Assembly: GCA_011524855.1 (NCBI GenBank)
Contig: WTJK01000061.1
Location: 1-35,394, forward strand
Direction: 5' to 3'
Length of the DNA stretch: 35,394 nt
Origin: Methanobacteriota archaeon
GTDB lineage: Archaea > Thermoplasmatota > Poseidoniia > Poseidoniales > Poseidoniaceae
Of the stretch, positions 3,292-29,892 are shown piece after piece. The notes below the pieces were generated by a model that worked only from the letters and a program-made list of their open reading frames with translations, did no database searches and was not told where the DNA came from. Positions within the stretch are counted from its first letter, which is position 1, and the number at the start of each line of letters is the position of its first letter. The translations under genes were made by a program, and so were the position numbers.

Positions 3292-4059
3292 TCACACCGA
3301 GTTTCGGGTGGTGTTGCACCCTACGCCCCATGTCGGATCAGCATCCATGGCCGACTTGGTGGCTGCGAGGAGCCGGTCCTCCGGCGTTTCATGGACCGTC
3401 CCTTCGGAACGAGCAGCAAGGGCCATCAGAAACCCTCCTTCGGACCAAATTTCCAATTGGATTTTTGAATGTTCAATTGAAATCTTTTCCGACGACATTC
3501 CAATTGGAAGTCGAACATGCCTCGGGTTCAGATGCATGCCCAGACCCATCGCTTTTTGCACGGCTTCCTTGCCAACCCAGGAGCGCATGGCCGCCTCCGG
3601 TCGAGACCGGAGTTCGCTCAATTCCTCTCCGCTCGCCATCAGATCAAAGGCGTTGGAGGCCAGCGTTCTATCCGCTGGCTCTGCATCCACGCCCAGACCC
3701 CATCCAGAAGGGCCGATGGCGACAAAGGCTCGGCCGTTGCTGTGGCAGATGGAAATGCTGGGCAACGGTGTGCGCACCCACACGCCGTGGATGTAAGCCA
3801 AGCGGGGCGCACGGTGTTCGTCCCGCACCACCATGAGGAGGTTCGAATCGACCGACGTGTGGGCTTCCAACACCGCTTGGAGGAGCCATCGCCCGGTGAG
3901 GTGTTCATCGCGGCGTTTGGCCACGGCAAACGTTCGAACTTCGTCAGCATGGGCGAGCATCGCTTCCTGAAGCGGCACGTTTCGAACCGGTGTTGAGAAC
4001 ACCCGTACACCTTCCAAGACCGAAGGGACGGTGTGCTCGACGACCGTCTCCATGCGCAT
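3292..4059 (-). CDS. 4'-phosphopantetheinyl transferase (Sfp-type)
   Basis: This enzyme transfers 4'-phosphopantetheine from CoA to acyl carrier domains. Family motifs are present in order: SISICHSNGRAFVAI, then the Mg-binding GVDAE (Asp125, Glu127), then WVGKEAVQK (Trp161, Lys164, Glu165, Lys169), the Sfp-family WxxKEAxxK signature. I set the start at ATG 4059 (255 residues; ATG 4053 is next), which is 10 nt after the stop of the synthase. A longer frame reaching 4260 lies inside the synthase gene and its extra 67 residues look like shadow translation. As last gene of the reductase-synthase-transferase operon it is the obvious activator of the synthase ACP repeats. The strength of the motifs makes the call reliable; specificity for Thr-bearing carriers would be unusual and is untested. 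Confidence 0.9.
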   Translation of the reverse strand: MRMETVVEHTVPSVLEGVRVFSTPVRNVPLQEAMLAHADEVRTFAVAKRRDEHLTGRWLLQAVLEAHTSVDSNLLMVVRDEHRAPRLAYIHGVWVRTPLPSISICHSNGRAFVAIGPSGWGLGVDAEPADRTLASNAFDLMASGEELSELRSRPEAAMRSWVGKEAVQKAMGLGMHLNPRHVRLPIGMSSEKISIEHSKIQLEIWSEGGFLMALAARSEGTVHETPEDRLLAATKSAMDADPTWGVGCNTTRNSV

Positions 4060-4069
4060 CACGCCCGTT

Positions 4070-7000
4070 TCATGATCGGTCCAGCGTGAAGCGTTGGGCC
4101 TCATCAACCGGAGCCATGGCCTTGAGTCGCAACCCCCGGAGGGCAAGCACGGGCGCATCGTCGTCCCCCACCACCACGGCATCGTGAACGGTGACACCGT
4201 CGTCTTCTTCCCCGAGCATGATGGATCGGAGTCGAAGGGCTTCGTTGGCTTCCGGGACACGGAGCATCGTTGACCATTCGATGCCGACCGGTAGGCTGCT
4301 CAAACCCAAGCGCTCCATGGCAACCAAGCCGGCGTTTTGGAACCCGGCTTCAATCAACATGGGCAGGCTCTCCAGCAGCACCGATGCCGCTTCGAGTTCC
4401 ATGCTGAACTGCTGAGGTTCAGGGAGTTGATGACGCATCAAGGCCACCCCGTCAATGCCCGGTTGTTCGCTCGAGCCAACACCGCGCAGCACGCCACCAT
4501 GGGATTGGAATCGTGGCCCGTGGAAATAGCGGTCGTAGATGAACGAAGCAGGATGGAGGTGTTGACCCGCTGCGGGAACACCGACGGAAGGCAAGGCCGC
4601 CACTTCTTCCTCCAAGAACGGACGGAGGTCGTCACTCTTGCGGACCAAGCGCACCAGGGCCGTGTGGTGTTCCCGTTGTCCGAAGACTTCGCCTTTGGAA
4701 TTGCTCAGGTCGGACACCAAATGGCACCGTACCCACACGAGCTCACCCTCTTCCCGTTCCACCACGGCCTCCACTCGAACCGTGAAGGGGCCCTTCACCA
4801 ATTTCACAGGCAATCCAAAGGCCACGTCTTCAAACCCAGCGAGGCAGGTGCTGGGCTGAAGCAACAGCGCATGCTGTGCAAACATCTCCAGCGCCATGAC
4901 GCCCGGATGATAGGGGACGCCGTTGATGGCGTGGTCGGTCAGGAACGGATGATCGGCCTCCGAGAGCGTGCACTGTCCCACCAGACGGTGTTCGGGTTCA
5001 AGGTCCAGCACCCGGTCAATGAAGGGGAACCGTGCGGGGTCCGCGATAACAGCCGCCATGGCGGGAGGCAACTTGACCGGGGCTTCCCTGAACGAACCAA
5101 AGCGGTCCATCACGCCCAGTGACCCACAACCAAGCACACGGCGTTTGCCCCCACGAAGGGCTTCGTCAACGAAGAGGTTCACCCCGTCCGCCACGGCCAG
5201 TGTTTCGATGCCAGCAGCGGCAAACACGGCTTCGATTGAACCGCGAGTGGCCATCCCCACGTCTCGCCAGCCTGTCCAGCCGATGGCCACGGCTCGGCAA
5301 TCACCGGCGGCGGTCAACCTGGCCATTTCGGCGTCGAGGATACCGTTGGCAGCGGCGTAATCGGTCTGTCCTCCGTTCCCAAAGCGACCCGCAACGCTGG
5401 TGAAACTGCAAGCAAAACGAGGGTGATCCGCACCGGACGCCTTCACGGCCCCCATGAGGGAACGCCAACCGTCCACTTTGACCCGCACCACGCGGTCAAA
5501 CACGTCGTGCCCCTTGTCCTTCACGAGTTTGGAATCCTCCAAACCAGCGCCGTGAACAATGCCCGTGATGGGAGCGCCCAGTGAACCACCGATGTCGGCC
5601 AAACGGTCACCGTCCATGACATCGGCCACGTGGTACATGGCTGCGTTGCCCGAGGCTTCAATGGCAGCGAGGGTCCGATGCACGTCAAGACTTCGCGTGA
5701 ACGCCTGCCAAGCTCGGTTCCATTGGACCATCGTAACTTTCCCGTCCGAAGTGGCGTCGACCATGCGCTGTCGAAGGGCGTTCTTTTCTTCGTTCAACGC
5801 CGCTTCGTCCCAATCCAACCAGTCGGCCGTTGCATCGATGAGCGGTGAGCGCCCAAGCAAGTGGAATTGAGCGCCAGCGTTCGGACTGGCGGTTGCCACG
5901 CCGATGATGGAGGCGGCCGTCACGCCGGAACCGCCACCGGACACCAACCAAACATCGTCGCTCATCAACGGTTCACGCTCCTGTTCGAGGTCCTCAGCGA
6001 AGGCCACCATGGCCCAGCGACGGCCGTCCCGGTCCAACCCAACCTCAACCTCACCGTCGAGGAGGAGGAGGTCGTCGAGCACAGCCTCAGCTGCCGCCTC
6101 GTGATCGAGGACGGTGTCGGGGTGCAAGTCCAACGCACGGCATCGCAGGTGAGGCCGCTCAAAGGCATAGGACTTCGTGATACCGCTCGCCCCTGCTTGG
6201 AGGGCGTTAAACCGATGACCGTTGTTGCCGTGACGACCGTCCAACGCCGTTACGGAAGCGACCAAGCCTTCGCCGTCCACCAGACGCTCACCCATTGCCT
6301 TCAACAAACCGAACCAACCCTGTGCTGCCAAATCAACCTGCGACGACGGAAGCGTGTCCTCCGCCCAGCGTTCTGAAGCAAGTTTGAGCGGCGCGAGGTG
6401 GATCAGGCCAGCCAGCCTCGTATCGGCCATTTGCCCACCGATCCATGCCGAGTGGTCCGGATTCCCGGGGTCAGCGCGAAGCACGCGACGACCGCCTTCG
6501 TTCATCTCTGATGGATCGCGAACCTTTGATTCGAAGCCGATGCGGACGGAATCGAGCCCTTGCGCTGCCAACCGCTGACAGACGGCCTCGGCGATGCCCC
6601 AGCCATCGTCGGTCACGAGAACGGTCCCGTTCAGTTTCAGCTCCGAGCGTACGCCGTGGCAAGGCTCAATCTCAACCTGCCAGCGGCGGGTGCCATCCAC
6701 GTGCAGGCCGTTGTTGGTCGTTGCTCCATCGGTGTCGGCGTCCTTCACAGGCGTGGGGTTGTCGGCTCCCTCGTCGGCGGCTTCACCCCCTTGCATTCGA
6801 ACGATGTACGCCGTGAAGTGGTTCAAGGTCGGATGGTCAGCAAGCACGAAGTGATCGTCGACCGGTAGCGAGAACCGATCACGAATTTCACCCATGATCT
6901 CCGCCTGCTTCACGGTATCAATGCCCAATTCACCTTCGAGGTCTTGGTCCATCTCAATGAAGTCCGCAGGATAACCCGTGTGGGCCACCACGACCTCAAT

Positions 7001-10000
7001 CAGCACGGATTCAATGTCAGGGTGGTTTCCAGCTGAAGCGGGTTCAACCGTCCCTTGAGCAGGAGGCCCCGGAACGGGGGTTGGCGCAGTGGGCGGTGCT
7101 GGGGCAGGTGCAGCAGCTTCCGAAACGGGCGAGGCGGCTGGGGCAGGCTGACCGCCCTTCATGCGCTGAATGTACCCCATCATGTGGTTCAGCGTGGGAT
7201 GGTCGGCGAGGACGAAGTCCTCATCCACGGGAAGTGAAAAGCGATCGCGAATGTCGGCCATGATCTCGGCTTGCTTCACCGTATCAATGCCCAACTCGCC
7301 CTCGAGGTCCTGGTCCAATTCGATGAAATCAGCCGGATAGCCCGTGTGATGGACCACCACCTCCACGACCGTGGCGACCATCGCATCGTCCGAAACCGGA
7401 GCAGAGGCCGCAACCGGGGCGGCTGAAGGCGCCACCGGAGCGACGGGGGCGGCCGGGGCTTGTGCCGGAGGTGCAGGCTGAGCAGCGGCAGACGGCGCAG
7501 CGGCAGCGGCAGCGGGTGAGCCCCCGGTCATTCGCTGGATGTAGCCGATCATGTGATTGAGCGTGGGGTAGTCGGCGAGCACGAAATCTTCGTCCACGGG
7601 CAGGCCAAACCGTTCCCGAATGTCCGCCATGATCTCGGCTTGTTTGACCGTATCAATGCCGAGTTCCCCTTCCAAATCCTGGTCGAGTTCAACGAAATCG
7701 GCAGGGTAGCCGGTGTGGTTCACCACGACGTCGATGACGGTGGCCACCATGGCCTCATCGTTGACGGGGGCTGGGGCCGTTGCAGGAGCAGCGGGCGCCG
7801 CCGGCGGAACGGGTGGGACGGTCTCAGCGACGACCTCCGGGGCCGAGGCGGGTTCCGCTTCAACGGCCGAAGGAAGCCCTTCCCAGGATTGGGTCGGGGC
7901 GTAGGCTTCACCCTGAACACCGCCGTGGAGGTTGTCCTCACCCCGCACGTAGGTGACCAGTTTGTTCTGCAACACGCGGAAGACCACGTCGTCCGTGCCG
8001 GCCAGCGAACGGACCCAAGCCAGCAGCCGTTGTCCGTCGATGCGTTCACCTTCAACCGGCCACCGACGCAGCAACGACAACGCAATTTGGGAGCCAAAGC
8101 CAGCGGCGAACCGCAACCCGTATTCCACGTTGGGGTAATGACCACCTTTGGAGAGGTTCAGGTTGCCCAGCTCTGGATCCTGTTCTTTGTGGTTGGCGAT
8201 GGGCGGAATGCGTTGGGTCAACAACCCGTACAGCATGGAGGCGTCTTCAATGCCCACCGCCATGGGATGGCCGGTGAACCCCTTGGTGTTGGCAATGACC
8301 AGTTGGTCGGTGGATTTGCCAAAGGTGTCCCGAAGGGCCTTCACTTCCGACTGGGCGGAACCGCCGCGAGCGGGCGTGTAGGTTTCGTGAGAGAAAAAGG
8401 CCGTGTTGGGCGCAATGTCGTGCCGATCAAGGCCCCACCTGCGTTCCATGCGCTCGATGAAACCGTCCACGACTTGGCTGACGTGGTCCACGTCAAGGCG
8501 GGTGCCGTGGTAGGCGGAATTGGCGGTTGTTGAACCCAGGAATTCAGCGATGGGTTGCACACCGCGTTGGGCGGCTTCCGAATGCCGCTCAACGACAAAT
8601 GCGGCTGCCCCCATGCCCAGCACCAAACCGTTGCGCCGTCGGTCGAACGGCAGGGCGGTTTCTTCCACCACGTTGCCGGTGGCGGCAGCACCCGAGGCTG
8701 CAAAGCCGCCTGCAATCCATTCCCAGAGGTCATCCCCGGTCACGTCGTCACCGCTGATGATGATCACGCGATCCACACGGTCGGCGTCCAACCAATCCTC
8801 GGCCACGCCGAACGCTGCTGTGGCTGAGGCACAGGCGAGGTTGATGGTGGTGTTCGGTCCGCGAATACCGGTGAATTGAGCGAACTGAGAGTGGCCCATG
8901 TTGAGCGTTTGGAAGAGGTAACGGCGGTCAAAGCGGCCTTCGCCGTCGTCACCGTTGTTCTTCGCATGCGCCTTGGCCATCTGCAGGCCGGGGAAGCATG
9001 AAGAAAACACAATACCGGTTCGTTCTCGCTGGATTTGTGGCACTTCCCACTTCCGAATGAGGCGCAACCCACCCTTGCCGACCTGCTCCACCGGCGTCAA
9101 TGGAATGCCAGCATCCCGAAGGGCCAGCAACCCTGCTGCCACGGAGAGTTGTGTGCTGATGTCCCATGCCAGGATGGCCTTGGGGTCCACACCGAACTCT
9201 TCAGCCAGGTCGAACGCACCTTTCAGGCCGGCCAGTTGGGGAATATCGCCAAACGCCGTGGCCGGTTCCATGTTCACCGAACCGTCCCGTCCTTTGATCA
9301 GCCGAACCAGATTTTTGTCCAGCAAGCGTTGCTTGTATTCGTCCGATACCTCCGAAAGGCACGTTTCACCGCGAACCAGGCGCTCGAAGGCATCTTCGGA
9401 GAACACGCGGTCCATGCCAGGCAAACCCAACGAAACACCGGTCACCACGTAGGGATCGGCGTCACGGCGGTGTCCAGCCGCAGGGGCAACCGAGGTGGTG
9501 GAACCGACGGCAGCAGGTGCGTTGACCAAACGGGACCGCGGCATCCAACCTGCTGGAGCCTGCTTGACCCATCGAACCAAATCGTCAGCGGTGACGGCGG
9601 CGTTGGGATCCACCGAGGCGTCCACCGACGCCTCCGAGCGCAACGTTGCAATGACGCTCTGCACGTTGGCGGGCGTCAGGCCCAACCCCGATTGGAGGTG
9701 AACATTGCCGTGGCAAAAGGAGGCCGGGTAGCCGCTGAAGACGGCGATGCGATCGCCGACATAGGCCTGAATCGCCTTGTGTTGGAGGAACGGGTCGTCC
9801 GCTGCAGGCCCGCCAACAACGGGTGCGGTCATGGCGGCCGTGGCCACCGGAGCCGTGCTGCTCGAGGGAAGGGGTCGAGCACGCGACAGCAGCGATTCCC
9901 GTTCTGCTGAAGATGCACTGGACTGCATTGGAGCGGCCTGATGTGCTTCGACCGGTCCAGCCCGGAACGCCTCGCTGAGCGCAGGTGAATCCATGGCTGG

Positions 10001-12901
10001 CCACACAGGTGGGCGGCCGGCCAGCGCCAGGGCGCCCACGGCACTGAAGAAACTGGCAATGCCGCCTTGCTTGGGATGGTTGGTCATCATTGCCACGTGA
10101 GGCGTGCCTTCCAAAATCTGGGAAGCGAACATGGTCAAGGCCCGCTTGGGGCCGACCTCAAGGAACATGCGAGCACCAGCACCGTACATGGTTCGAATTT
10201 GTTCGGTCCATTCCACCGAGGACGCCATCTGCGGTGCAAGTTTCTCCAAGATGCTCGTTTTTGCATCCTCTCCTTTGGTTGGGTAAAAGGAACCGTCAAC
10301 GTTGGCCGTGATGGGGACGCTTGGCCATCGAATCTCGAGCCCTTCGAGGAAACGGCGCAAGGGTTCGTTCGCCGGCGCCACGATTCGGGAGTGGAAAGCA
10401 TGCGATGTGGCCAACGGCACACAATTGAATCCCTTCGCTTCGAAGGCCGCCATCGCCGCTTTAACCGGTGCGGTCTCGCCTGCGATGACGGTCATCTTGG
10501 GGGAATTCTTGTTGGCGGCGATCACGTAACCTTCGGTGGCGTCGAGTACCTTCTCCACCTCGTCGTAGGGTGCCGTGACGCTCGCCATGAGGCCTTGGTC
10601 ATCGATTTCGACCGACCCCATTTCGGTGCCGCGAGCGGCAGCGGCGCGCAAGGCACCGTCCATGTCCAAAATGCCTGAAGCCATCAGTGCCGCATATTCG
10701 CCAAGCGAATGCCCGGCGACCATGTCGGGCTGGTATCCAAAGGTGTTCAGCGTCCGCTCGATGGCCAGGTCGGCCGTCAGCATGGCGGGTTGCGTGTATT
10801 CGGTTTGCTTCAGTTTGTGCTCGGCTTCCATCCGCTCGTCCTTGGACAAGGCCGTACGAAGAACAAAACTCGAGAGGGTCTCACCGTCCAGCACCTCCAC
10901 CATGGTTTCATCGGCTTGGTCCCAGACCTGCTGTGCTGCGGAAAAACGCTGGACGAGATCCACCGTCATCCCGACGTATTGGCTGCCCTGCCCCGGGTAC
11001 ATGTGGGCAACCTTGGCTTCGTTGGGAAGCGGTGGTTGGTCCGTGATCATGACGCCTTGCGCCTGCAGGAAGCCCCACTTCTCCGGGTCATGCATCGCCT
11101 TGGAAGCCAAACCCTGTCGCTTGATGAACTCCTCCCATGTCGTCGCAACCACGGCCATGCGGACCGGTGCGGCGGCATCGAAACCGGCACTCCATCGCTG
11201 AAGTTCACTGGACAGCCGTCGGCCACGGGGGTCGTCGTCGAACAACGGACCGGAGGTGTCCACTGCCATCAGCGCCGATTCAAGCTCGGCCAAGGAACCT
11301 CCGGAAAGCAACAACACACCGCCTTCCAGCGCCTTCAAGGCTTCATGAGAGAGCGAGGGCGAAGCAGACCCGTCCAACACGGAAGGTGCAGCAGGAGCGG
11401 CTGCGTACGCCCGCCAGCGTTGTTCCCAGGCCTGAGCCAGCGGCGCATGGATGTCGGGTTCATACCCCTCTAGCGCCACGTGGAAGTTCGTCCCACCGAA
11501 GCCAAAGGCGGAGACACCGGCTCGGCGAGGATGGTCTTCGGGGCGAGGCCATTCACGAGCCTCTGTTGGGACGAAGAAGGGGATGTTCGACCAGTCCACG
11601 GTGGGGTTGGGGGTTTGGAAATTGGCGCTCGGAGGGATGGTGCGATGGTGAAGCGCCATCACCGTCTTCATGATGCCAGCAATACCGGCCGCTGCCTTGA
11701 GGTGTCCAATCTGCGATTTGATGGAGCCCACGGCCACTTGACCCGTGCCCTCTACGTCGGTCCACAGCCTTGACAGCGTGGCCAATTCGGTGGCGTCACC
11801 GACTTTGGTGGACGTACCGTGGGCTTCCACCAATTCAACCGTGGAAGCCGGGTACCCGGCTTGGCTGTAGGCACGTGCAATCGCTTGGATCTGGCCGCGC
11901 TGGCTCGGGGCTGTGATGCCTTTGCCGCGCCCGTCGGAAGAACCGCCCACGCCGCGAATCACGGCGTAAATTTCGTCGTCATCGTTGATAGCGTCACTGA
12001 GACGCTTCAGCAACAACACACCGGCGCCTTCGCCCATGACGAACCCGTTCGCACGAGCATCAAACGGCGAGGAGTGGGTCGGCGAAAGTGCGCCGATGGC
12101 AGAGAATTTTGCAAACGTCGCTGGGTCCATGGTCCGGTCGGTTGCCCCAGCGAGCATGGCGTCCACCTGGCGGGTTTGAAGCAAACGGCAGGCGTCGAGC
12201 ACGGCCGCCATGGAGGACGCACAGGCAGCGTCCATGGCGTGGTTAGGCCCTTGGAGGTCGAGCAGGTTGGCCACCCGTCCCGAAACGACGTTGGCCAATT
12301 CGCCTGGCATCGTGTCCTCGTTGATGCGGGGCGTGCCGTCGATGACGGCATCAACGAACCCGTCCAACGAAGTGGCTGGCATGCCGTGGTCCGCAGCCAG
12401 CGCCCGTGTGTGATCCGACCAGACGCGAATGTTCGAGAGGTTGCGGTTCTCACCGCCCAAAGCGTTGGCAAACACCACGCCGGCTTTGCTTCGATCCAAG
12501 GGTTTCCCGTCAGCACCGTAACCTGCGTGGTCCAACGCATCGGCCGAGACCGTGACCGCCCAAAGCTGGCAGGGATCGATTTGCGGCAACGTGCCGGGAG
12601 GTTGTCGCCAACGCTTCCAATCAAACGCATCGTCGTGGACAACAGCACCGATCTTCGCGTAGGTTCGCCCTTCCGTGTGTTGGCCAGGACCCCCTTCTTT
12701 CCAAAAATGGTCCACCGGACCGGGCCATCGCCCGTCGGGCAACTCGGCGATGCTGACCTTGGCATCGAGGATGTTCTGCCAGAACGCCTCAATGGAGGGC
12801 GCATCGGGCATCAGGGCGCCCAGCCCCACCACTGCAATGGGTTCAAACGGCCCTTGTTCAAGTCCTTCGCATGGTTTTCCGTCATCGGTGGTCAAACGCA
12901 T
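4070..12901 (-). CDS. Iterative type I fatty acid/polyketide synthase (KS-AT-degenerate ACP-KS-3xACP-KR-DH)
   Basis: The 2943-residue multidomain enzyme starts at ATG 12901 behind a GGTGAG site. Domains in order: KS1 (about 18-450; Cys227 in DAACASS, His361 in EAHGTST, His400 in GHLKAAAG); AT (about 625-930; Ser732 in GHSLGE and HAFH with His837, the malonyl-CoA pattern); a degenerate ACP-like segment (about 1030-1095); KS2 (about 1140-1625; Cys1357 in ACASATA, His1505 in SHETYTP, His1545 in TGHPMA); three ACP repeats (1714-2039); KR (about 2075-2570; SGGGSGVT cofactor loop, Ser2502, Tyr2515); DH (about 2590-2940; His2657 in HAINGVPYHP, Glu2851/Gln2855 in the second half). There is no enoyl reductase or thioesterase domain; a FabI homologue is the preceding gene, 9 nt away. 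One AT serving two KS and tandem ACPs resembles PUFA-synthase logic (PfaA), but this order is not PfaA. The product is probably a reduced acyl chain; its length is unknown. Confidence 0.95.
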   Translation of the reverse strand: MRLTTDDGKPCEGLEQGPFEPIAVVGLGALMPDAPSIEAFWQNILDAKVSIAELPDGRWPGPVDHFWKEGGPGQHTEGRTYAKIGAVVHDDAFDWKRWRQPPGTLPQIDPCQLWAVTVSADALDHAGYGADGKPLDRSKAGVVFANALGGENRNLSNIRVWSDHTRALAADHGMPATSLDGFVDAVIDGTPRINEDTMPGELANVVSGRVANLLDLQGPNHAMDAACASSMAAVLDACRLLQTRQVDAMLAGATDRTMDPATFAKFSAIGALSPTHSSPFDARANGFVMGEGAGVLLLKRLSDAINDDDEIYAVIRGVGGSSDGRGKGITAPSQRGQIQAIARAYSQAGYPASTVELVEAHGTSTKVGDATELATLSRLWTDVEGTGQVAVGSIKSQIGHLKAAAGIAGIMKTVMALHHRTIPPSANFQTPNPTVDWSNIPFFVPTEAREWPRPEDHPRRAGVSAFGFGGTNFHVALEGYEPDIHAPLAQAWEQRWRAYAAAPAAPSVLDGSASPSLSHEALKALEGGVLLLSGGSLAELESALMAVDTSGPLFDDDPRGRRLSSELQRWSAGFDAAAPVRMAVVATTWEEFIKRQGLASKAMHDPEKWGFLQAQGVMITDQPPLPNEAKVAHMYPGQGSQYVGMTVDLVQRFSAAQQVWDQADETMVEVLDGETLSSFVLRTALSKDERMEAEHKLKQTEYTQPAMLTADLAIERTLNTFGYQPDMVAGHSLGEYAALMASGILDMDGALRAAAARGTEMGSVEIDDQGLMASVTAPYDEVEKVLDATEGYVIAANKNSPKMTVIAGETAPVKAAMAAFEAKGFNCVPLATSHAFHSRIVAPANEPLRRFLEGLEIRWPSVPITANVDGSFYPTKGEDAKTSILEKLAPQMASSVEWTEQIRTMYGAGARMFLEVGPKRALTMFASQILEGTPHVAMMTNHPKQGGIASFFSAVGALALAGRPPVWPAMDSPALSEAFRAGPVEAHQAAPMQSSASSAERESLLSRARPLPSSSTAPVATAAMTAPVVGGPAADDPFLQHKAIQAYVGDRIAVFSGYPASFCHGNVHLQSGLGLTPANVQSVIATLRSEASVDASVDPNAAVTADDLVRWVKQAPAGWMPRSRLVNAPAAVGSTTSVAPAAGHRRDADPYVVTGVSLGLPGMDRVFSEDAFERLVRGETCLSEVSDEYKQRLLDKNLVRLIKGRDGSVNMEPATAFGDIPQLAGLKGAFDLAEEFGVDPKAILAWDISTQLSVAAGLLALRDAGIPLTPVEQVGKGGLRLIRKWEVPQIQRERTGIVFSSCFPGLQMAKAHAKNNGDDGEGRFDRRYLFQTLNMGHSQFAQFTGIRGPNTTINLACASATAAFGVAEDWLDADRVDRVIIISGDDVTGDDLWEWIAGGFAASGAAATGNVVEETALPFDRRRNGLVLGMGAAAFVVERHSEAAQRGVQPIAEFLGSTTANSAYHGTRLDVDHVSQVVDGFIERMERRWGLDRHDIAPNTAFFSHETYTPARGGSAQSEVKALRDTFGKSTDQLVIANTKGFTGHPMAVGIEDASMLYGLLTQRIPPIANHKEQDPELGNLNLSKGGHYPNVEYGLRFAAGFGSQIALSLLRRWPVEGERIDGQRLLAWVRSLAGTDDVVFRVLQNKLVTYVRGEDNLHGGVQGEAYAPTQSWEGLPSAVEAEPASAPEVVAETVPPVPPAAPAAPATAPAPVNDEAMVATVIDVVVNHTGYPADFVELDQDLEGELGIDTVKQAEIMADIRERFGLPVDEDFVLADYPTLNHMIGYIQRMTGGSPAAAAAAPSAAAQPAPPAQAPAAPVAPVAPSAAPVAASAPVSDDAMVATVVEVVVHHTGYPADFIELDQDLEGELGIDTVKQAEIMADIRDRFSLPVDEDFVLADHPTLNHMMGYIQRMKGGQPAPAASPVSEAAAPAPAPPTAPTPVPGPPAQGTVEPASAGNHPDIESVLIEVVVAHTGYPADFIEMDQDLEGELGIDTVKQAEIMGEIRDRFSLPVDDHFVLADHPTLNHFTAYIVRMQGGEAADEGADNPTPVKDADTDGATTNNGLHVDGTRRWQVEIEPCHGVRSELKLNGTVLVTDDGWGIAEAVCQRLAAQGLDSVRIGFESKVRDPSEMNEGGRRVLRADPGNPDHSAWIGGQMADTRLAGLIHLAPLKLASERWAEDTLPSSQVDLAAQGWFGLLKAMGERLVDGEGLVASVTALDGRHGNNGHRFNALQAGASGITKSYAFERPHLRCRALDLHPDTVLDHEAAAEAVLDDLLLLDGEVEVGLDRDGRRWAMVAFAEDLEQEREPLMSDDVWLVSGGGSGVTAASIIGVATASPNAGAQFHLLGRSPLIDATADWLDWDEAALNEEKNALRQRMVDATSDGKVTMVQWNRAWQAFTRSLDVHRTLAAIEASGNAAMYHVADVMDGDRLADIGGSLGAPITGIVHGAGLEDSKLVKDKGHDVFDRVVRVKVDGWRSLMGAVKASGADHPRFACSFTSVAGRFGNGGQTDYAAANGILDAEMARLTAAGDCRAVAIGWTGWRDVGMATRGSIEAVFAAAGIETLAVADGVNLFVDEALRGGKRRVLGCGSLGVMDRFGSFREAPVKLPPAMAAVIADPARFPFIDRVLDLEPEHRLVGQCTLSEADHPFLTDHAINGVPYHPGVMALEMFAQHALLLQPSTCLAGFEDVAFGLPVKLVKGPFTVRVEAVVEREEGELVWVRCHLVSDLSNSKGEVFGQREHHTALVRLVRKSDDLRPFLEEEVAALPSVGVPAAGQHLHPASFIYDRYFHGPRFQSHGGVLRGVGSSEQPGIDGVALMRHQLPEPQQFSMELEAASVLLESLPMLIEAGFQNAGLVAMERLGLSSLPVGIEWSTMLRVPEANEALRLRSIMLGEEDDGVTVHDAVVVGDDDAPVLALRGLRLKAMAPVDEAQRFTLDRS
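6785..7762 (-). repeat. Three tandem acyl carrier protein repeats with Ala/Pro-rich linkers
   Basis: Inside the synthase, three near-identical units of about 80 residues (1714-1794, 1837-1917 and 1959-2039) are spaced about 122 residues apart. Each carries HTGYPADF, LDQDLEGELGIDTVKQ (MDQ in the third) and a YPTLNH or HPTLNH end. Linkers are rich in Ala and Pro, typical of flexible tethers between carrier domains. The residue expected to hold phosphopantetheine is Thr in all three (Thr1751, Thr1874, Thr1996; codons ACG, ACG, ACC). High mutual identity suggests internal duplication with ongoing homogenisation. Tandem ACPs are a known way for PUFA-type synthases to raise flux. Confidence 0.9.
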
Positions 12902-12904
12902 CGT

Positions 12905-12910
12905 CTCACC
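12905..12910 (-). promoter_or_regulatory. Shine-Dalgarno site of the synthase gene
   Basis: GGTGAG on the minus strand lies in the 9-nt gap between the reductase stop (12911) and the synthase ATG (12901). It fixes the synthase start and supports co-transcription of the two genes. Confidence 0.7.
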
Positions 12911-13711
12911 TCAGTTCATGATGCTCTCTGGCACCATCGTGATCGAATAGCCCGCATCCACGTGGATGCATTGTCCCGTGACGCCCGCCGAGAGCGGACT
13001 CGCCAGCCACAGTGTGGTGCCGGCCACGTCCTCCTGACTCACGTTTCGGCGCAACGGCGCGTTGGCCTCGACATGGTCAAGGATGCGATCAAAACCAGGA
13101 ATCCCGCTCGCAGCGATCGTGCGGATCGGACCCGAAGAGATGGCGTTGATGCGGTGACCCTCGGGACCCAGGTGGCAAGCCAATTCCCTTGTCCAGCACT
13201 CAAGGGCAGCTTTGGCCATGGACATGATACCGTAACTTGGGACAAACCGGGTGCTTGCTGCGTAGGTCAGGGTGATGGTGGACGACCCTGGATTCAGGTA
13301 CGGCAGCGCATGCTTGAGGCACCGCTGCAAGGAATTGGCCGAGATGGTCATGGCGGTGTTGATGTCCTCGTCTTCCACGAAGAGCACGGGCCGGTCAAAG
13401 CATGAACGTGGAGCAAAACCAATGGCGTGGACGAGGATGTCAGCTTTTTTCCCTGGATGATCGGCGGCGAAGGCCGTGAAGAATTCCTTGGTGGTGGCGT
13501 CCGCGGCCACATCGAGGGGGTAGAAGCCAGCGATGGCCGGGAGCTCATCTTTCAGTTTGAAGACGCGACTCATGAACCGCTTCTGATAACCCAAGTACAG
13601 GGTCACGCCCGAAGCAGCCAGGTGCTTGCAGATGGCCCAAGCGATGGAATCCTCGCTGGCGACTCCAAAAACAAAGGCCGTTTTCCCTTGAAGACCGAGC
13701 ATCAACGCCAC
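12911..13711 (-). CDS. fabI: Enoyl-[ACP] reductase, FabI type
   Basis: This is an NAD(P)H-dependent short-chain-fold enoyl reductase that would saturate the trans-2-enoyl intermediate in fatty acid elongation. It is 266 residues from GTG 13711, or 263 from ATG 13702, and the start is unresolved. FabI-specific signs are clear: the N-terminal GVASEDSIAWAI cofactor loop, the active-site pattern Tyr150 / Tyr160 / Lys167 with the 10- and 7-residue spacing of bacterial FabI, RINAISSGPIRTIAASGI with the substrate-loop signature, and a DAGYSI end. It is the first gene of the operon, so it probably supplies in trans the enoyl reductase missing from the synthase. PUFA synthase clusters normally use the unrelated flavoprotein PfaD for this step, so FabI here points toward saturated chains. 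Confidence 0.93.
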   Translation of the reverse strand: MALMLGLQGKTAFVFGVASEDSIAWAICKHLAASGVTLYLGYQKRFMSRVFKLKDELPAIAGFYPLDVAADATTKEFFTAFAADHPGKKADILVHAIGFAPRSCFDRPVLFVEDEDINTAMTISANSLQRCLKHALPYLNPGSSTITLTYAASTRFVPSYGIMSMAKAALECWTRELACHLGPEGHRINAISSGPIRTIAASGIPGFDRILDHVEANAPLRRNVSQEDVAGTTLWLASPLSAGVTGQCIHVDAGYSITMVPESIMN

Positions 13712-13807: not shown

Positions 13808-14875
13808 TCAAAGGTCGGCAAAGACATCGTCGAAATCGTCGTCAAGGTCGTCATCGAGGTCGTCCAAATCATCGAAGTCAAACTCGTCTTCTTCCGGGTC
13901 ATCGTCCGGCAGGTTCACGGTCGGCATCACCATCGGCTGAGCGTTGGCTTTGTTGCGAAGAATACGAGCCATGGCCACCAGCAACACCAGGCCGAACAGC
14001 ACCGCACCTGCGATGCCACCGTAGAGCACGAGGTCGTCCTTGCTGACCTCTTCGAGACCACCGCCCAAGGCGTTGGATTCGCTGGCGGCTTCGAGCTGGA
14101 TCGAGATGGACATTTCACTGACTTGGGCGTCTGCGTCGTTGCCGCTGCTGGCTTGGAACACCACTTGGTGACGCGTGCCCTCGGCAATGTCGGAGGGGGA
14201 GCGAATGACGAGTTCTTTGAGCGTGGACGTACCGCCTTCGTCCACGTTTTCTGACACGAACACACCGCTGGGGAAGGTGAAACCGAGGGCTTGGAGTTCA
14301 TCGGCGTTGACGATGTCCACACGAATGTTGTCTCGGTCGTTGCCGTTGTTGCTGAACTGGAACGCCACCTTCGTTTCTTCACCTTCACTCAGGGTGCGGG
14401 TGCTGGTGTCACCGATGTCCAAATCGACCATACCAAAGGCAGCGATGTTCAAATCCCCGCTGACCGACGCATTGGAAGCCAACTGTTCCGGCCAGGTGAG
14501 CATTCCAACGTTGGTCACGGTCGCCGTGAGCGTGAAGCCCCACGATTCGGTAGCGGAAAGGCGCTTCACACCGTTGAAACTCACGGTGAAATCTTCTTCC
14601 TCACCCGCTGCAAGTGTAAACGAATCTTCCGAGAGCAGCATGTCAACCTGCGTCCCCTCCCATTCCTTCTCCACCGTGATGGTCTCCTCGAGCGATGAAG
14701 GGTTCGTCACGGTGCAGGTGATCTCCACCGTTGGGGTGTTCAACGGATGCACGTCCATTTCGGGTTGCTTTTCATCGCAGTCGATCTCAACACCCGGCAA
14801 GGATTGTGCTTGGGCAGCCATGGGAAGCGTGGCCAAGGTGAGGAGCATCACCAACCCCAACGCACTTCGCATCAT
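13808..14875 (-). CDS. Secreted, C-terminally anchored protein with beta-sandwich repeats and acidic tail
   Basis: I chose ATG 14875 because a GGCGGAG site precedes it; upstream in-frame starts at 14914 and 14932 lack one. The 355-residue product begins with a signal peptide (MMRSALGLVMLLTLATLPMA, cleavage near AQAQS). Two extracellular segments follow that read like CARDB/NEW3-type beta-sandwich domains (ITCTVTNPSSLEETITV; VAFQFSNNGNDRDNIRVDI). A single membrane helix (about 282-306, GGIAGAVLFGLVLLVAMARIL) precedes a very acidic cytoplasmic tail of about 45 residues, mostly Asp and Glu. The function is unknown; it may be a cell-surface structural or scaffold protein. It lies 97 nt upstream of the reductase gene on the same strand and might share transcription with the operon. 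Confidence 0.7.
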   Translation of the reverse strand: MMRSALGLVMLLTLATLPMAAQAQSLPGVEIDCDEKQPEMDVHPLNTPTVEITCTVTNPSSLEETITVEKEWEGTQVDMLLSEDSFTLAAGEEEDFTVSFNGVKRLSATESWGFTLTATVTNVGMLTWPEQLASNASVSGDLNIAAFGMVDLDIGDTSTRTLSEGEETKVAFQFSNNGNDRDNIRVDIVNADELQALGFTFPSGVFVSENVDEGGTSTLKELVIRSPSDIAEGTRHQVVFQASSGNDADAQVSEMSISIQLEAASESNALGGGLEEVSKDDLVLYGGIAGAVLFGLVLLVAMARILRNKANAQPMVMPTVNLPDDDPEEDEFDFDDLDDLDDDLDDDFDDVFADL

Positions 14876-14950
14876 GAGACTCCGCCCTGATGTGTGGTGA
14901 GCATCCTCTTTCATGAATGTGCTGACGCACATGCTCGTAGCGAAGCGGGG

Positions 14951-17270: not shown

Positions 17271-20200
17271 TCACTGATTGTTGCGCCAGTCTTGGAGCGA
17301 TGCGATGTCCCAACCTTGGTCAAAGTAGCCTTGAATCTGGTCTTGCGTCCAATCGGGGAACGCCGCCATGGCCTCGGCCATCTGGGGTGAAACATTGCTT
17401 GGGATGGCTGCCAGCGTCTTGCTTGGTGCGGCAACCATCTCGTCTTCCTCGTCTTCGTATTCCTCGTCAAACATGGAGGGGCCGCCGCCACTGCCACGCC
17501 GAGCGAGCACGACCACCACGGTACCGAGCACACCGATGACGCCCACCAAGAGCACAACGATGAGCAAGAACGAACCCGAGTCTTCCTCTTCGGCCACCTT
17601 GACGTTGAACGCATCGGCCCATTGAGCGGAGGAACCATCGTACAACACATCGCTGGTGCCGTTCAGGCTGATGGTGTAGTACATGCCCGTGGTCTGGGCG
17701 GTGAACGGCTCAAGTTCGATTTCAATCCAGTCGCTTTGCTCTGCCACGCCGAGTTCTTCCGTGGCCACCACGATTTCGAGGCGCGGCGTGCCCTGGTCGA
17801 TGACCGATTTGATTTCCAACTCGGCGACACCGGCCATGGTACCGGTGTTGCGGACCTTGACGCGAAGTTTCATCTTGTCACCAACGCGAGGCTCCTCATC
17901 GAGCAGCACGTCGACGATCTCAAACGTGGCTTCTTCGTTGATGAAGGTGTAGAGTGAGCGGCGCTTGGCCTCGTCCGACGGGATACCGATGACAGAGCCA
18001 TCTTCTTGCGGCCCGCCACCGCCGACCACGGCCGAACCTGCTGAGTCAACACCGCTGACCCAGAACACCAGTTCAATGCCGTTCATCTGAGCGACGTCGG
18101 GCCCGTAAATGCCATCGGTGATGGGCCAAAGGTCGAGACAGGTCGCAGTGGCTGCGTAGCCATCGCCAATGGTGGAGAGGTTCAACGCGGCGGTCCCGGG
18201 ATCAGCGCCGAAATACCGGACGTACTCGTTCCACTTCACGGCCGGCGTGGCCGTGTTGTCCTGATAGAACATCCAGTTGACCGTGAGATCGCCGGGGAAC
18301 ATGGCCTCGCGCTCGGTGATTTGCACGTTCACATCGACGCAGTGGAAGTTGGCGGTGGACAGGGTTCCGACGTTGAACCGGTCTTCACCCGCAGAATCGG
18401 GCAGAGCGCCCTTTTGCGTGCTCCACGTGTTGGCCTTCACGGTGGGCGGCGAAAGATCGACCTTGATGGTGAAGGCACCACAGCCGTAATCCGTCGTTGT
18501 GGCGCAGATGGAGGCCGTGAAGTCTTCGGCTCCGTCGGGGAGGTTCACGAGTTGGAAGGTGTAGCTGTACTCGTTGGTGAAGATGGGGGCGGTCAGGTTG
18601 AAGTCGAACACACCGCCGGTGAAATTCATGACCACGGTTTCACCTGGGTACTGCGTGTAGCCACGCAGTGGGTCGGCCGTCGCCGCAGCCCGAGTGATTT
18701 CCATCTGAAGTTCCACCTCAGGATTGATGTAGACGCTGTCGTAAATTCCCTCTCGGAAAGCGTACTGACCCTGGAAGCGGATGGTGTCACCGGCGTACAC
18801 AAAGCCCTGGCGGACGTCTTGCGTGAACGGCTCGCTGGCGTCAGCGAACGTTGGTGTCACCATCAGATCGTTGGTGGGGTCGGTACGGAAGTCGAGTTGA
18901 ATGCCGTCGCTGTACCGCCAAATCTGGATGTGTCGGCCGGGAATACCGGACAACATGGTGTAGAGCGGGTTGTCGAGGTCCTGCATCTGGAGGCGTGGTT
19001 CAATGTCCGTGCCGTCAAGACCGGCAATGCCCCAGTTGATTTGGATGGGAATGTCGACGATGAAATCCCCTTCGAAGGGGTCGATGAGCGCCGTACCATC
19101 GATGTTGAGCATGCTCGGCCCGACCTCCTCGTTGTCGACGATGGTGAGGTACGGGCTGTCGGTCCACGCCGTTTCGTTGCGTGGGAAATACCACACGACC
19201 ATGTTGTCCGAGGTTTTGTCCAAGTTCAATTTGAAGTAGTCAATGTCGCGCCATCCGTTGTCGTCGCTGGCTTCGGTCAACAGGTGGTACACGTTGCCGG
19301 CGTACATGGTTTGGTTCCAAGTGCCGTCCCATTGTTGCTCGTTGGCGTTGAGGAAGGTGTTGCCTCGGGAGTCCTCGATGTTGAAATTGCGGATCACGGG
19401 GGACCTGGAGGTCATGGAAACGTAGCTCACTCGGTCGTTGTCGAAGCCCGGTGCACCACCGTCGATGGGGTTGCCAGCGTTGTCGTACCCTTCGACCCAA
19501 ATGGACACCTTGCCGCGCAGGCCTTCGTTGGCGTAATCGCTGTACGTGCCGGAGTAGTTTGCCGTGGGCGCTTCACCGTCGCTGGCCATCGTGATCGTGG
19601 CGTATTCGTCAGCGTCGGGGATGCCGTCGTCGTTCGCATCGTGGTCGTGCTCCACCCAATAGTGGAGGTCCAAACTGCTGGGCGGGTTGGGCAGGTCTTG
19701 GCTGGACATCCGGATTTCCTGCATCGACTGTGGGACGACCCACGTATCGTCAAGCAGCGTGCGCCAGTTTTCGTCGACGTTCCGGTCGGTGCCCGGGCTC
19801 AGCACTTGCAGGTCGAGCAGGTTGGGCTCGTAGGTGTCGATGGAAATGTCGAACGGAATGGCGCAGGTGGCGTCGGGCATGTACTCCGCTGGCGGACAAA
19901 CGAGGTCCCCGTCGTCGTAGCCACGGACAGCGAAGCGGTATGTTTCGCTGCCTGCAGCCGAACCAAGGTCGATGTTCCAGTTGAAATCGCCACCGATGAC
20001 CCCAGAGCGGTTGGCCACTTCTTCCCACTCAACGGTCACGTTGCCGTCGGTGATGTTCATGTGGCGAAGTTCGAGCACCATGTAGTAGGCCGACGGGTCG
20101 GGGGATTCAGCCAAATCTTCGAGACGAATCTGACCGATGATGTTGATGTCCTGGCCGGATTCAGCACCCGTGAGAGGCTGTTGCACCCCGATGCTGTTCT

Positions 20201-27303: not shown

Positions 27304-28644
27304 TTATCCAAGCAATTCCTGGTGCATGTCGATGTACTGGATGGTGATGTCTCCGTTGATGAAATCTGTTTCATCCATGATGCGGCGATGAAGCGGAATC
27401 AAATGCTCCACCCCGGTGATGATGGTTTCATCGAGGGCGGTGCGCATGCGGCGGACAGCGTCCTCACGATCGCGCCCCCACACCAGCAACTTTGCCAGCA
27501 ACGAGTCGAAACATCCCGGCATTTCGTACCCGGGGTGAGCATGAGTGTCGCATCGGACACCGAAGCCGCTGGGGAAATGGCATTCCCACAAACGACCTGG
27601 ACTGGGGACGAAGGCTCGCGGGTCCTCTGCGTTGAGGCGGCATTGAATGGCATGCCCTCGCCAGCGAATGTCCTCTTGAGCCAGCGGCAAGGCTTCACCT
27701 TGCGCCACACGGATGCCAAGTTCCACGAGGTTGTGACCGGTGATCAGTTCCGTCACGGTGTGCTCAACCTGAACCCGTGGATTGACCTCGAGGAAATAGA
27801 AATCCCCGTTTGCATCTCGGAGGAATTCGAAGGTGGCGAGGCCCTTGTAGCCCACAGCCTCTGCACCACGGCAGACCAAGGAGCCGATTTCCTCCCGCTT
27901 GGCATCGGTCAACCACGGCCCTTCCTCGACGAGCTTTTGGTGACGGCGTTGGATCGAGCAAAACCGTTCGCCGAAGTGAATCGCCTTCTTCCCGTCCGCC
28001 AAGACTTGAAACTCAACGTGCTGGGCGCCTTGGATGTACTTCTCAACAAACACCCGGTCATCGCCAAACGCCGATTTGGCCCGTGACTGGCAGAGTTTGA
28101 GGGCGCCTTCGAATTCATCGGCTTGGTGCACGATTTGCATACCGATGCCACCACCGCCAGCGGCCGCCTTGATGATGACGGGGTAACCGATTTCATCGGC
28201 GAGCGCACTCGCCACGTCCGCACTGGCGATGGGTTCGGACGACCCTTTGGCCGTCGGCAGACCGGCGGCCTCCATGGCAGCGCGAGCCTGGATTTTATCA
28301 CCCAAGAGCGTGATCACGTCCGACGAAGGACCGATGAACGTGATGCCCTCCTCTTCCAAACGAGCCACGAAGGCGGCGTTTTCAGCGAGGAAGCCGTACC
28401 CGGGGTGGACGGCGTCGCATTCCAATTCCTTGGCAGCCGTGATGACGGCTTCGATGTCGAGGTAGGAATCCAACGGGTTGGTGCGGTAGTTGGCGTACGC
28501 CACGTCCGCCATGCGCACCGGCAACGACAACCGGTCTTCTCGGCCGTGAATGATGGCTGCTTCAATGCCCATGTCGCGCAACGTTCGGAGAATGCGCAAG
28601 GCGATTTCACCGCGGTTGGCAATCAGAACCCGCTTGAACGTCAT
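27304..28644 (-). CDS. accC: Biotin carboxylase subunit of an acyl-CoA carboxylase
   Basis: ATG 28644 behind GAGGATG gives 446 residues, the normal size for a stand-alone AccC. The protein has the biotin carboxylase start (KRVLIANRGEIALRILRT), HPGYGFLAENAAFV, the ATP-grasp glycine loop KAAAGGGGIGM, FGERFCSIQRRHQKL, and EVNPRVQVEHTVTE with catalytic and metal-binding residues. It carboxylates biotin on a carrier protein using ATP and bicarbonate, the first half of malonyl-CoA or propionyl-CoA formation. No biotin carrier or carboxyltransferase gene is visible here, so partners must be elsewhere. It lies just downstream of a fatty acid hydroxylase-family gene on the same strand, and could supply malonyl-CoA to the synthase in this window. 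Confidence 0.92.
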   Translation of the reverse strand: MTFKRVLIANRGEIALRILRTLRDMGIEAAIIHGREDRLSLPVRMADVAYANYRTNPLDSYLDIEAVITAAKELECDAVHPGYGFLAENAAFVARLEEEGITFIGPSSDVITLLGDKIQARAAMEAAGLPTAKGSSEPIASADVASALADEIGYPVIIKAAAGGGGIGMQIVHQADEFEGALKLCQSRAKSAFGDDRVFVEKYIQGAQHVEFQVLADGKKAIHFGERFCSIQRRHQKLVEEGPWLTDAKREEIGSLVCRGAEAVGYKGLATFEFLRDANGDFYFLEVNPRVQVEHTVTELITGHNLVELGIRVAQGEALPLAQEDIRWRGHAIQCRLNAEDPRAFVPSPGRLWECHFPSGFGVRCDTHAHPGYEMPGCFDSLLAKLLVWGRDREDAVRRMRTALDETIITGVEHLIPLHRRIMDETDFINGDITIQYIDMHQELLG

Positions 28645-28707
28645 GCATCCTCGGCAACCGAAGCCATCTATGAGCAAAGCGGTGCCGAAGGACGAAGGGA
28701 CGGCGAT

Positions 28708-29775
28708 TCAAACCGGAGGGAGGTCCACCGGTTCAGAGTGGTTGGTGCGTTGTTGCACACGCTCGACGGCACGCTCAAACGGTTCACCGCGTGGCCGGAA
28801 CATCGAACGACGCATCATGCCCAAGATGCCCCAAAGGCCGCCCACCATGGCCTTGAAACTCCGGAACGGATGACGGAGGAACCTCAGAGGGTTGCCCATG
28901 CCCTCCAGGGGGTACCGAAGTTGCTCCATCATCGTCATCGGAATGGGCTCGTCGATCCCGTACACGGTGGGACGCTTGTCTTTGGGCATGTAATAGGTGC
29001 CGAAGACGATGTCCCACAGCGGCAGGAAGGTGGAGTAGTTGCACCAGATGGCTTCCTCTTCGTTGGCATGGTGCCAGTGGTGGAATTCAGGCGTCATGAT
29101 GAGGCGGGAGAGGGGCCGAAGGCGCAACCGAACGTTGGCATGAAGGAACAGCCCCAACACGATCTGCACCACCGCAATGGCCCCGGAGAATTCGGGGCTG
29201 AAACCTGCGGCGATGAGGAAGAAGAAGGCCGGCGCGATCAGCGTGCCGTCGAAGGGATGTGCGCGAAAGCCACTCACCCAATCCATGTCCTCGGGCGAGT
29301 GGTGAACAGCGTGGAAGCGCCATAATTGAGGGACTTCGTGGTACCAACGGTGAGTCCAGTAGCCGGCAAGGTCAAACAACGCGACACCGACCAGCAGCAA
29401 ATACGGCTCCGGAATGGATTGGATGTACGGCCTCAGCAACAACCCCGGCAACCAAGCGAAGCTGAGGACACCCACGAGCACGGCAGCCACCAAACCCGCC
29501 CCTTGGAGAATCGGTGAAGCGATGGCGTAGCCGATGTCGAGATCGAGGTGCGGGCGTCTGAACCCTTGATGAGGATGGCGAGGAAAAAGCCGCTCAAACG
29601 GCACGACAAGAACGAACAGAGCAATCACAGCACTGAGTCCTTCCTGGTCGTAGAGGTAGGCCACACCCGCCAGCGTCAAGGCCATGATGCGCAAGACAAT
29701 GGCACGGGGCCAACCCCCGACCGGCGGCAAGCGTGGTGCTTCAGGCACCTCGCGCTTGGCCTCTTCGCCGTCCAT
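28708..29775 (-). CDS. Fatty acid hydroxylase / sterol desaturase superfamily membrane enzyme
   Basis: ATG 29775 gives 355 residues. It has hydrophobic segments around 28-60, 83-117, 125-140 and 176-212. The di-iron histidine clusters of the family are present: HRWYH (His142, His146), HAVHH (His155, His158, His159) and HHWHH (His232-236), with further His at 173 and 212. Family members use O2 and a di-iron centre to hydroxylate or desaturate acyl chains, sterols or carotenoids. Substrate is unknown. The gene precedes the biotin carboxylase by 63 nt, and with the synthase and thioesterase it adds to the lipid theme. No Shine-Dalgarno site precedes the ATG; a TATA-like box lies about 23 nt upstream, suggesting a leaderless mRNA. 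Confidence 0.87.
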   Translation of the reverse strand: MDGEEAKREVPEAPRLPPVGGWPRAIVLRIMALTLAGVAYLYDQEGLSAVIALFVLVVPFERLFPRHPHQGFRRPHLDLDIGYAIASPILQGAGLVAAVLVGVLSFAWLPGLLLRPYIQSIPEPYLLLVGVALFDLAGYWTHRWYHEVPQLWRFHAVHHSPEDMDWVSGFRAHPFDGTLIAPAFFFLIAAGFSPEFSGAIAVVQIVLGLFLHANVRLRLRPLSRLIMTPEFHHWHHANEEEAIWCNYSTFLPLWDIVFGTYYMPKDKRPTVYGIDEPIPMTMMEQLRYPLEGMGNPLRFLRHPFRSFKAMVGGLWGILGMMRRSMFRPRGEPFERAVERVQQRTNHSEPVDLPPV

Positions 29776-29794
29776 GGCCCGTGGTGACGCTGGA

Positions 29795-29802
29795 CCTATA
29801 CG
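29795..29802 (-). promoter_or_regulatory. Candidate TATA box of the hydroxylase-carboxylase-kinase operon
   Basis: CGTATAGG on the minus strand is centred about 23 nt before ATG 29775, a spacing consistent with a leaderless archaeal transcript. There is no competing Shine-Dalgarno site. Confidence 0.4.
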
Positions 29803-29892
29803 GTTCTTCGCGTCACTTGATTGCCGGGCAGGGTGTCGGAAAGAGGAGGTTTATCGCGCCCAAATGCCGGATTCTTGAAAGGAATTCGGCGA

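Follow-up and report, generated by a model that had tools for sequence, protein, structure and literature searches.

Where do the acyl chains of Marine Group II (MGII, Candidatus Poseidoniales) come from? In the upper ocean this group is one of the dominant archaea, and its membrane composition is an open question; passages in PMC6962369 and PMC6461757 report that it lacks the archaeal glycerol-backbone enzyme and possesses PlsC-like acyltransferases. The question takes concrete form in a 35,394-nucleotide stretch of DNA (the window, contig C72; the genome is 84% complete), the minus strand of which carries, at positions 3292-13711, an operon for a FabI-like enoyl reductase, a type I synthase and a phosphopantetheinyl transferase (PPT). 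A second question resides in the synthase itself: its carrier domains display threonine at the site where, by the textbook rule, the phosphopantetheine arm is attached to serine. We judge it probable that the operon encodes a dedicated type I synthase that is inherited vertically, works iteratively and makes reduced straight acyl chains from malonyl-coenzyme A (malonyl-CoA). With more reserve, we favor the broader view that a family of fatty-acid-type megasynthases, archaeal with at least one actinobacterial member, uses an O-(4'-phosphopantetheinyl)-threonine arm by way of a co-evolved, often fused PPT, and that it supplies the acyl chains of MGII mixed membranes.

The operon's first gene (12911-13711, GTG start) encodes the 266-residue FabI-like reductase, followed by the 2943-residue synthase (4070-12901) and the 255-residue Sfp-type PPT (3292-4059). 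The PPT start was taken as the ATG at 4059; the mechanical open reading frame (ORF) to 4260 would overlap the synthase. All three genes lie on the minus strand, separated by spacers of 9 and 10 nucleotides. Pfam detects two ketosynthase (KS), one acyltransferase (AT), three PP-binding, one ketoreductase (KR) and PKS_DH_N matches in the synthase, adh_short_C2 (PF13561, 234 bits) in the reductase, and ACPS (PF01648, 28.8 bits, cut-off 25) in the PPT. The top NCBIfam rows for the reductase are FabI models, all under cut-off, with the best scoring 214.5 against 391 bits; its YGIMSMAK segment presents the Tyr-x6-Lys spacing, which we take to be a mark of enoyl reductases. Gene order is conserved: among the named loci, which are the best 80 of 155 confirmed synthase stretches, a fabI homologue is found directly upstream of the synthase in all 66 loci that reach far enough, and a PPT directly downstream in all 58 that do. 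The three-gene operon with its two short gaps, as put forward in a preliminary description of this DNA, is thus borne out by ORFs, Pfam and conserved gene order.

The synthase is organized as KS1, AT, a degenerate carrier-like domain, KS2, three threonine carriers, KR and dehydratase (DH). KS1 (residues 20-483) and AT (residues 634-931) are recognized by both Pfam and NCBIfam, and the AT possesses an HAFH motif that is presumably of the malonyl type. KS2 (7982-9454, residues about 1150-1640) forms, on alignment, a subfamily of its own with an intact Cys-His-Lys-His set; in a sequence search of the PDB, FabF-type ketosynthases rank first. Ahead of KS2, the carrier hidden Markov model (HMM) detects a domain whose site residue is Asp or Glu; it does so in 10 named loci. 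The window's own copy of this domain (9497-9739, residues about 1055-1135) is missed by the HMM and is tied to those 10 loci by pairwise matches; as read, it holds neither Ser nor Thr at the site. A fourth working carrier at this position was ruled out, the domain being degenerate. The domain order proposed earlier for the synthase stands, and the carrier once placed in parentheses before KS2 is this degenerate domain.

Conservation of the catalytic residues was mapped on a 36-row alignment comprising 25 MGII sequences (the window's own copy, L005, included), ten from other Thermoplasmatota and one from the actinobacterium Nonomuraea. The catalytic residues of KS1, AT (Ser, His) and KS2 are intact in 36/36 rows, and the KR Ser/Tyr/Asn and DH His/Glu/Gln residues are present in all rows long enough to show them. 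A single chain bearing KS, AT and carrier, with the KS and AT residues intact, makes the protein a type I synthase by its sequence. Departures are few: a DH glycine is replaced by Asn in one MGII row and one other row, a DH proline by Ala in one non-MGII row, and one KR glycine by Ala in Nonomuraea; the KR Leu-x-Asp position varies across rows, and six of the ten other Thermoplasmatota rows have Ala as the initial HAFH residue. Four rows display Val, Ile or Glu in the third-carrier column, which we take as misalignment in rows with fewer carriers, because the carrier HMM reveals no such residue in working carriers. Purifying selection on the synthase is evident from dN/dS values of 0.043 and 0.046 in two MGIIa pairs (L008/L014 and L074/L109), which are rough at dS of 1.4 and 2.3; the ratio was computable for two of four pairs, the other two containing N bases.

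The three carriers (carrier 1, 7502-7759; carrier 2, 7133-7390, PF00550 match G000:C72:7169-7372; carrier 3, 6767-7024, match G000:C72:6803-7003) pass the PF00550 cut-off as three stretches with 87.6 bits in total. Each reads GIDT, at Thr1751, Thr1874 and Thr1996, within an identical GIDTVKQAE, so that the PF00550 attachment position is occupied by something other than serine in 3/3 carriers. HMMER places these threonines on the site serine of solved acyl carrier proteins (ACPs); in the AcpM chain 9rgb the letter opposite the threonine is X, a non-standard residue, presumably a modified serine. Across 111 distinct loci, the carrier HMM yielded 304 Thr, 15 Ser, 10 Asp or Glu and four truncated sites. 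Six of the 15 Ser carriers belong to ordinary polyketide synthase (PKS) controls (L116, L117), all ten Asp/Glu sites are those of the degenerate domain before KS2, and the four truncated carriers lie at ORF ends. Within the family, 313 carriers are readable, of which 304 are Thr and nine Ser (299 and nine as distinct sequences). The Ser carriers occur in genera g14 (L159), g7 (L160, L177) and g5 (L178), and in one of the four carriers of L154. Since L159 and L160 branch from within Thr rows in the KS-AT tree, the change there seems to have run from Thr to Ser. Two other carrier threonines, T16 and T66, are invariant and look structural, because Ser-type controls have both too.

We infer that the site threonine carries 4'-phosphopantetheine. 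The operon had been called ACP-dependent at the outset; a reducing, carrier-type synthase is indeed what we find, and the threonine at the phosphopantetheine site had been overlooked, so that carrier dependence has to be argued for rather than taken as given. The argument runs through the PPT. Its Asp125, Glu127, Trp161, Lys164, Glu165 and Lys169 are invariant in 27 aligned sequences. An AlphaFold2 (AF2) model built from the alignment has a pLDDT of 90.3, and a Foldseek search of the PDB with this model (E<=0.001) returned 28 matches, 25 of them titled phosphopantetheinyl transferases and three, mycobacterial, titled only 'Transferase'. By predicted fold and by motif residues, the PPT fits the Sfp type.

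Carriers and PPT also keep company across genomes. Among 59 Poseidoniales genomes, PF00550 matches occur in 38, with 96/96 on synthase contigs and in long synthase frames; in those 38, the synthase carriers are the only carriers detected, and 33 could be read, 29 as Thr and four as Ser (G033, G035, G049, G050). PF01648 likewise matches in 38/59 genomes, one per genome, and the 18 genomes without the synthase contain neither PF00550 (0/18) nor PF01648 (0/18). At the level of profile matches, from which diverged carriers could escape in the case of PF00550, the carrier-PPT pairing is exclusive. The synthase genomes without a carrier match are G019, G025 and G038; those without a PPT match are G022, where the gene is cut by a contig end, and G035 and G049, both of genus g7. 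Neither these counts nor the co-occurrence counts given below are corrected for relatedness, and among family-f2 genomes those lacking the synthase tend towards smaller size. In Thermoplasmatota relatives outside Poseidoniales, the pairing is physical: one open frame holds both synthase and PPT motifs in L150-L153, L155 (where the second motif is the variant FSAKEAYLK) and L157, and in these six loci all carriers found are Thr. The PPT of L154 was seen by Pfam only, and no PPT motifs were found in L156.

Taken together, a mechanism for the operon can be proposed. The adjacent PPT would place 4'-phosphopantetheine onto the carrier threonine, the AT would load malonyl, as its HAFH motif suggests, and KS1 and KS2, two intact condensing domains, would perform condensation; the KR would then reduce, the DH dehydrate, and the separate FabI-like protein reduce the enoyl double bond. 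Chain release is perhaps achieved by an acyltransferase, a step we propose because neither the synthase nor the scanned window genes showed a thioesterase domain. The operon had been described as complete, which holds for the predicted elongation cycle and fails beyond it, with no thioesterase domain seen and malonyl-CoA supply located outside the operon. The end product is likely an acyl, perhaps hydroxyacyl, lipid, because a PlsC-type acyltransferase and a fatty-acid hydroxylase tend to co-occur with the synthase. PlsC-type acyltransferases (PF01553) are present in 39/39 Poseidoniales genomes searched and in 0/4 archaeal controls. One paralogue group (at least 288 bits), represented in the window's genome by G000:C29:48961-50556 (L192), with a long C-terminal part lacking a Pfam family, is found in 35/41 genomes with the synthase, being missing from G035 and G049 among others, and in 2/18 without it. 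Both are metagenome-assembled genomes from the window's genus, with a completeness of 70% and 67%; in f2 the count is 0/16.

Two window genes outside the operon may contribute. The fatty-acid-hydroxylase-family protein (28708-29775, minus strand; PF04116, with a weak OlsE-like match of 102.6 of 475 bits) is a possible partner of the synthase: at 1e-10, matches occur in 31/41 genomes with the synthase (that in G035 only 30% identical) and in 0/18 without it. A biotin carboxylase subunit (27304-28677, minus strand; Pfam, NCBIfam) possibly contributes to malonyl-CoA supply. Biotin carboxylases adjoin homologous synthases in L150, L154, L157 and L115, which fits malonyl-CoA as extender, and a carboxyltransferase (PF01039) is present in 39/39 Poseidoniales genomes searched. 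Together with a CysJ-like flavoprotein reductase, these genes form a run at 27304-31653, in which the reductase perhaps supplies the hydroxylase with electrons.

Several observations weigh against a threonine-armed synthase that feeds membranes. In the E. coli ACP, the Ser36Thr (S36T) exchange is a standard negative control, described in a passage of PMC3340395 as unmodifiable and non-functional; therefore, either the cognate PPT must accept threonine, or the system operates otherwise. Genus g7 combines Ser carriers with a PPT that is barely recognizable (13.4 bits). Carriers themselves have precedent in archaea, since PP-binding was also detected in Methanosarcina acetivorans, one of the four archaeal controls. 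The NCBIfam cut-offs for FabI and PfaA are not reached, and chain release and starter loading are left unexplained. Sixteen f2 genomes are without the system, yet PlsC is present in the ten of them searched; membranes throughout the order can therefore do without it being present everywhere. Lastly, a passage of PMC6962369, a field study of MGII-dominated water, reports no unusual abundant polar lipids. As a separate observation, the g7 PPT candidate just mentioned (L160:13516-14169), very diverged, is the next gene after the Ser-carrier synthase of G035.

The loss of function in S36T lends itself to an alternative in which the Thr carriers are never phosphopantetheinylated, chains being CoA-bound, the carriers structural and the PPT directed at another target. 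According to a portion of PMC3533463, archaea in general have been proposed to use an ACP-independent route. Against the alternative, no PP-binding match lies outside the synthase in the 59 genomes. Moreover, PPT and synthase are absent together, the PPT motif residues are invariant, the PPT shares one frame with Thr-only synthases, and the site hydroxyl is kept, as Thr or Ser, in 313/313 readable family carriers. We hold this alternative to be unlikely.

What kind of chain would a phosphopantetheinylated synthase make? The top profile overall for the synthase is PfaA (TIGR02813, 857.3 bits), under its curated cut-off of 1010.1 bits. The preliminary description had set the domain order apart from PfaA; on the contrary, it is PfaA's KS-AT-ACPn-KR-DH with an inserted KS. 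KS2 and the degenerate carrier between AT and carriers distinguish the window protein from PfaA, as do the attachment-site Thr, the FabI-like reductase and the operon's own PPT; the carriers resemble each other, with GIDSIKR in the Persicobacter synthase L117 and GIDTVKQ in the window. We would class the synthase as PfaA-type iterative with a separate FabI-like reductase, outside PfaA by cut-off. It could then be a polyketide- or polyunsaturated-fatty-acid (PUFA)-like secondary-lipid synthase, the same machinery making a specialized, partly reduced or unsaturated chain as Pfa synthases do. The PfaA score, tandem carriers and shared order suit this idea, enoyl reduction by a separate protein could be skipped, and absence from 16/24 f2 genomes suggests a non-essential product. 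Pfa systems use PfaD as enoyl reductase, whereas here a FabI-like reductase is tightly linked (66/66); a Pfam scan confined to genes of the window found no pfaB, pfaC or pfaD, and the PfaA score stays under its cut-off. A PUFA-like product is therefore a tentative option to us, and a reduced straight acyl chain the product we prefer; the domain set would permit saturated chains from malonyl-CoA. Bacterial type II fatty acid synthases (FabI, FabF, ACP) share the cycle chemistry, the FabI-like reductase and the nearest KS2 structures; they differ from the predicted fused megasynthase with Thr carriers. The enediyne-type PKS of Streptomyces globisporus C-1027 is an iterative KS-AT-ACP-KR-DH enzyme whose polypeptide also includes a PPT. 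This PKS (L118) resembles the other Thermoplasmatota relatives in having PPT and synthase on one polypeptide and departs from the window protein with a KS1 of 36% identity and no KS2 match.

Is the operon archaeal at all? Its domain order is shared by a bacterial homologue (41% identity over 79% of the query), which could point to contamination or to a recent transfer from bacteria that ended up in an archaeal bin. Against this, the synthase is encoded on a single-contig archaeal chromosome record, CM001443.1 (L081, 2,064,136 bases), and the window itself encodes Orc1/Cdc6 and a TBP-domain protein. TBP-domain and TatD genes stand ahead of the operon both in family f1 (L162) and in f2 (L158, L159, L161), a pair not seen in L160; f1 probably corresponds to MGIIa and f2 to MGIIb. 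In the KS-AT tree, 25/25 Poseidoniales rows form one clade with support of 100/100; within it, the four MGIIb rows branch together (98/92). Deeper in the tree, forks lack resolution and several branches are long. Operon GC is similar to that of the rest of the window. Chimera and contamination are ruled out by synteny, chromosome record, tree and GC, a recent transfer is refuted, and we give this explanation almost no credence. By these comparisons the operon is archaeal and vertically kept in Poseidoniales. The placement on an archaeal chromosome made in the preliminary description thus holds, and the grounds named there for abandoning it, a bacterial or chimeric contig or a single recent bacterial donor, are contradicted by synteny, CM001443.1 and the KS-AT clade.

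The suggestion to seek the operon in other MGII genomes was fruitful: the synthase is present in 41/59 Poseidoniales genomes, the window's own included, with conserved gene order, and all 80 kept loci come from records labeled Poseidonia, Poseidoniaceae, Poseidoniales, Euryarchaeota or euryarchaeote. The synthase is missing from 16/24 genomes of f2, in which two control genes are largely retained (PfkB in 15/16, a metallo-beta-lactamase-fold protein in 16/16). Two of the 18 genomes without the synthase, G006 and G016, are just 70% and 67% complete.

How far does the family extend? In an even draw of 389 Thermoplasmatota genomes from the phylum, the KS2 profile at 1e-40 matched 97, of which 16 lie outside Poseidoniales in six families; loci from 11 of these 16 were retrieved. 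Pairwise matches recover KS-AT-KS-ACPn-KR-DH in L150-L153 and L155-L157 among the eight long loci examined, with additional carriers before KS1 in L153 and L156; in L154, the DH was detected by Pfam instead, and L163, L164 and L165 are incomplete at contig ends. The very long N-terminal extensions of the stop-to-stop ORFs of L150-L157 were set aside as probable artefacts of GC-rich stop-to-stop reading: those of L150, L152 and L154 have no Pfam match, L151 has a sub-cut-off match, and for L152 a fabI match occupies this stretch in a different frame. In L157, an NMO domain precedes the synthase (L157:13110-15203); NMO is, we assume, the family of FabK/PfaD-like reductases, and the enoyl reductase may therefore have been swapped in that lineage.

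The sole bacterial homologue found is that of Nonomuraea gerenzanensis, from a plasmid collection (L115:11986-19653). It shares KS-AT-KS-ACP-KR-DH, the KS2 subfamily (51% identity) and a Thr carrier, GVDTVKQAE; it differs in having one carrier found rather than three and a fused acyl-CoA carboxylase alongside, with acyl-CoA dehydrogenase and wax-ester/DGAT synthase genes as further neighbors. The PPT motif pair was not found in this 31-kb locus with the pattern used. A plasmid search with the Nonomuraea KS2 listed 40 of 501 records, comprising the known protein and ketosynthases at 26-29% identity; its carrier retrieved itself only. In viral contigs, query P0001 returned nothing, and KS2 gave 52 pattern matches, none confirmed. 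An ancient transfer, by which the family with its Thr carriers arose in bacteria and entered Thermoplasmatota once or several times, would be compatible with the synthase proposed here, and we find it fairly plausible given the architecture, Thr carrier and lipid-related neighbors in Nonomuraea. It is also in keeping with a passage of PMC3533463 stating that few archaea have ACP and its machinery and ascribing this to transfer. Opposed to it are the single bacterial member, drawn from a plasmid collection, and the unresolved, long deep branches of the KS-AT tree. The general view cited at the outset, that archaea are without ACP-dependent synthesis, requires softening on two counts: few archaea are said to have the machinery, and a putative MGII fatty-acid pathway has already been published.

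Passages of PMC6962369 and PMC7852524 describe MGII as lacking G1PDH and, citing Villanueva 2017, as having that putative pathway along with PlsC; the synthase itself is undescribed in those passages. Term searches of PMC6461757 and PMC6336850 gave no 'polyketide', and the fatty-acid passages there concern degradation. Neither this operon nor natural threonine carriers were reported in the text available from the open-licence full-text literature searched (including PMC13343975, PMC11744666 and PMC12664062). A dedicated acyl-chain synthase would give the MGII membrane question a concrete enzyme and, if our reading is true, a source of acyl chains long sought for mixed-membrane lipids. The threonine carrier, if shown, would be a new biochemical feature and a natural exception to the serine rule, which the natural Thr/Ser interchange series challenges; the cognate PPT might serve as a tool for Thr-directed labeling.

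Two further window genes deserve mention. A 1949-residue open frame (17271-23120, minus strand) has no Pfam or NCBIfam match, and a partial homologue (32% over 823 residues) lies upstream of the operon in the MGIIb locus L159. Adjoining the operon, a choice-of-anchor T family protein (13808-14932, minus strand) has a homologue with 42% identity beside the operon in L162.

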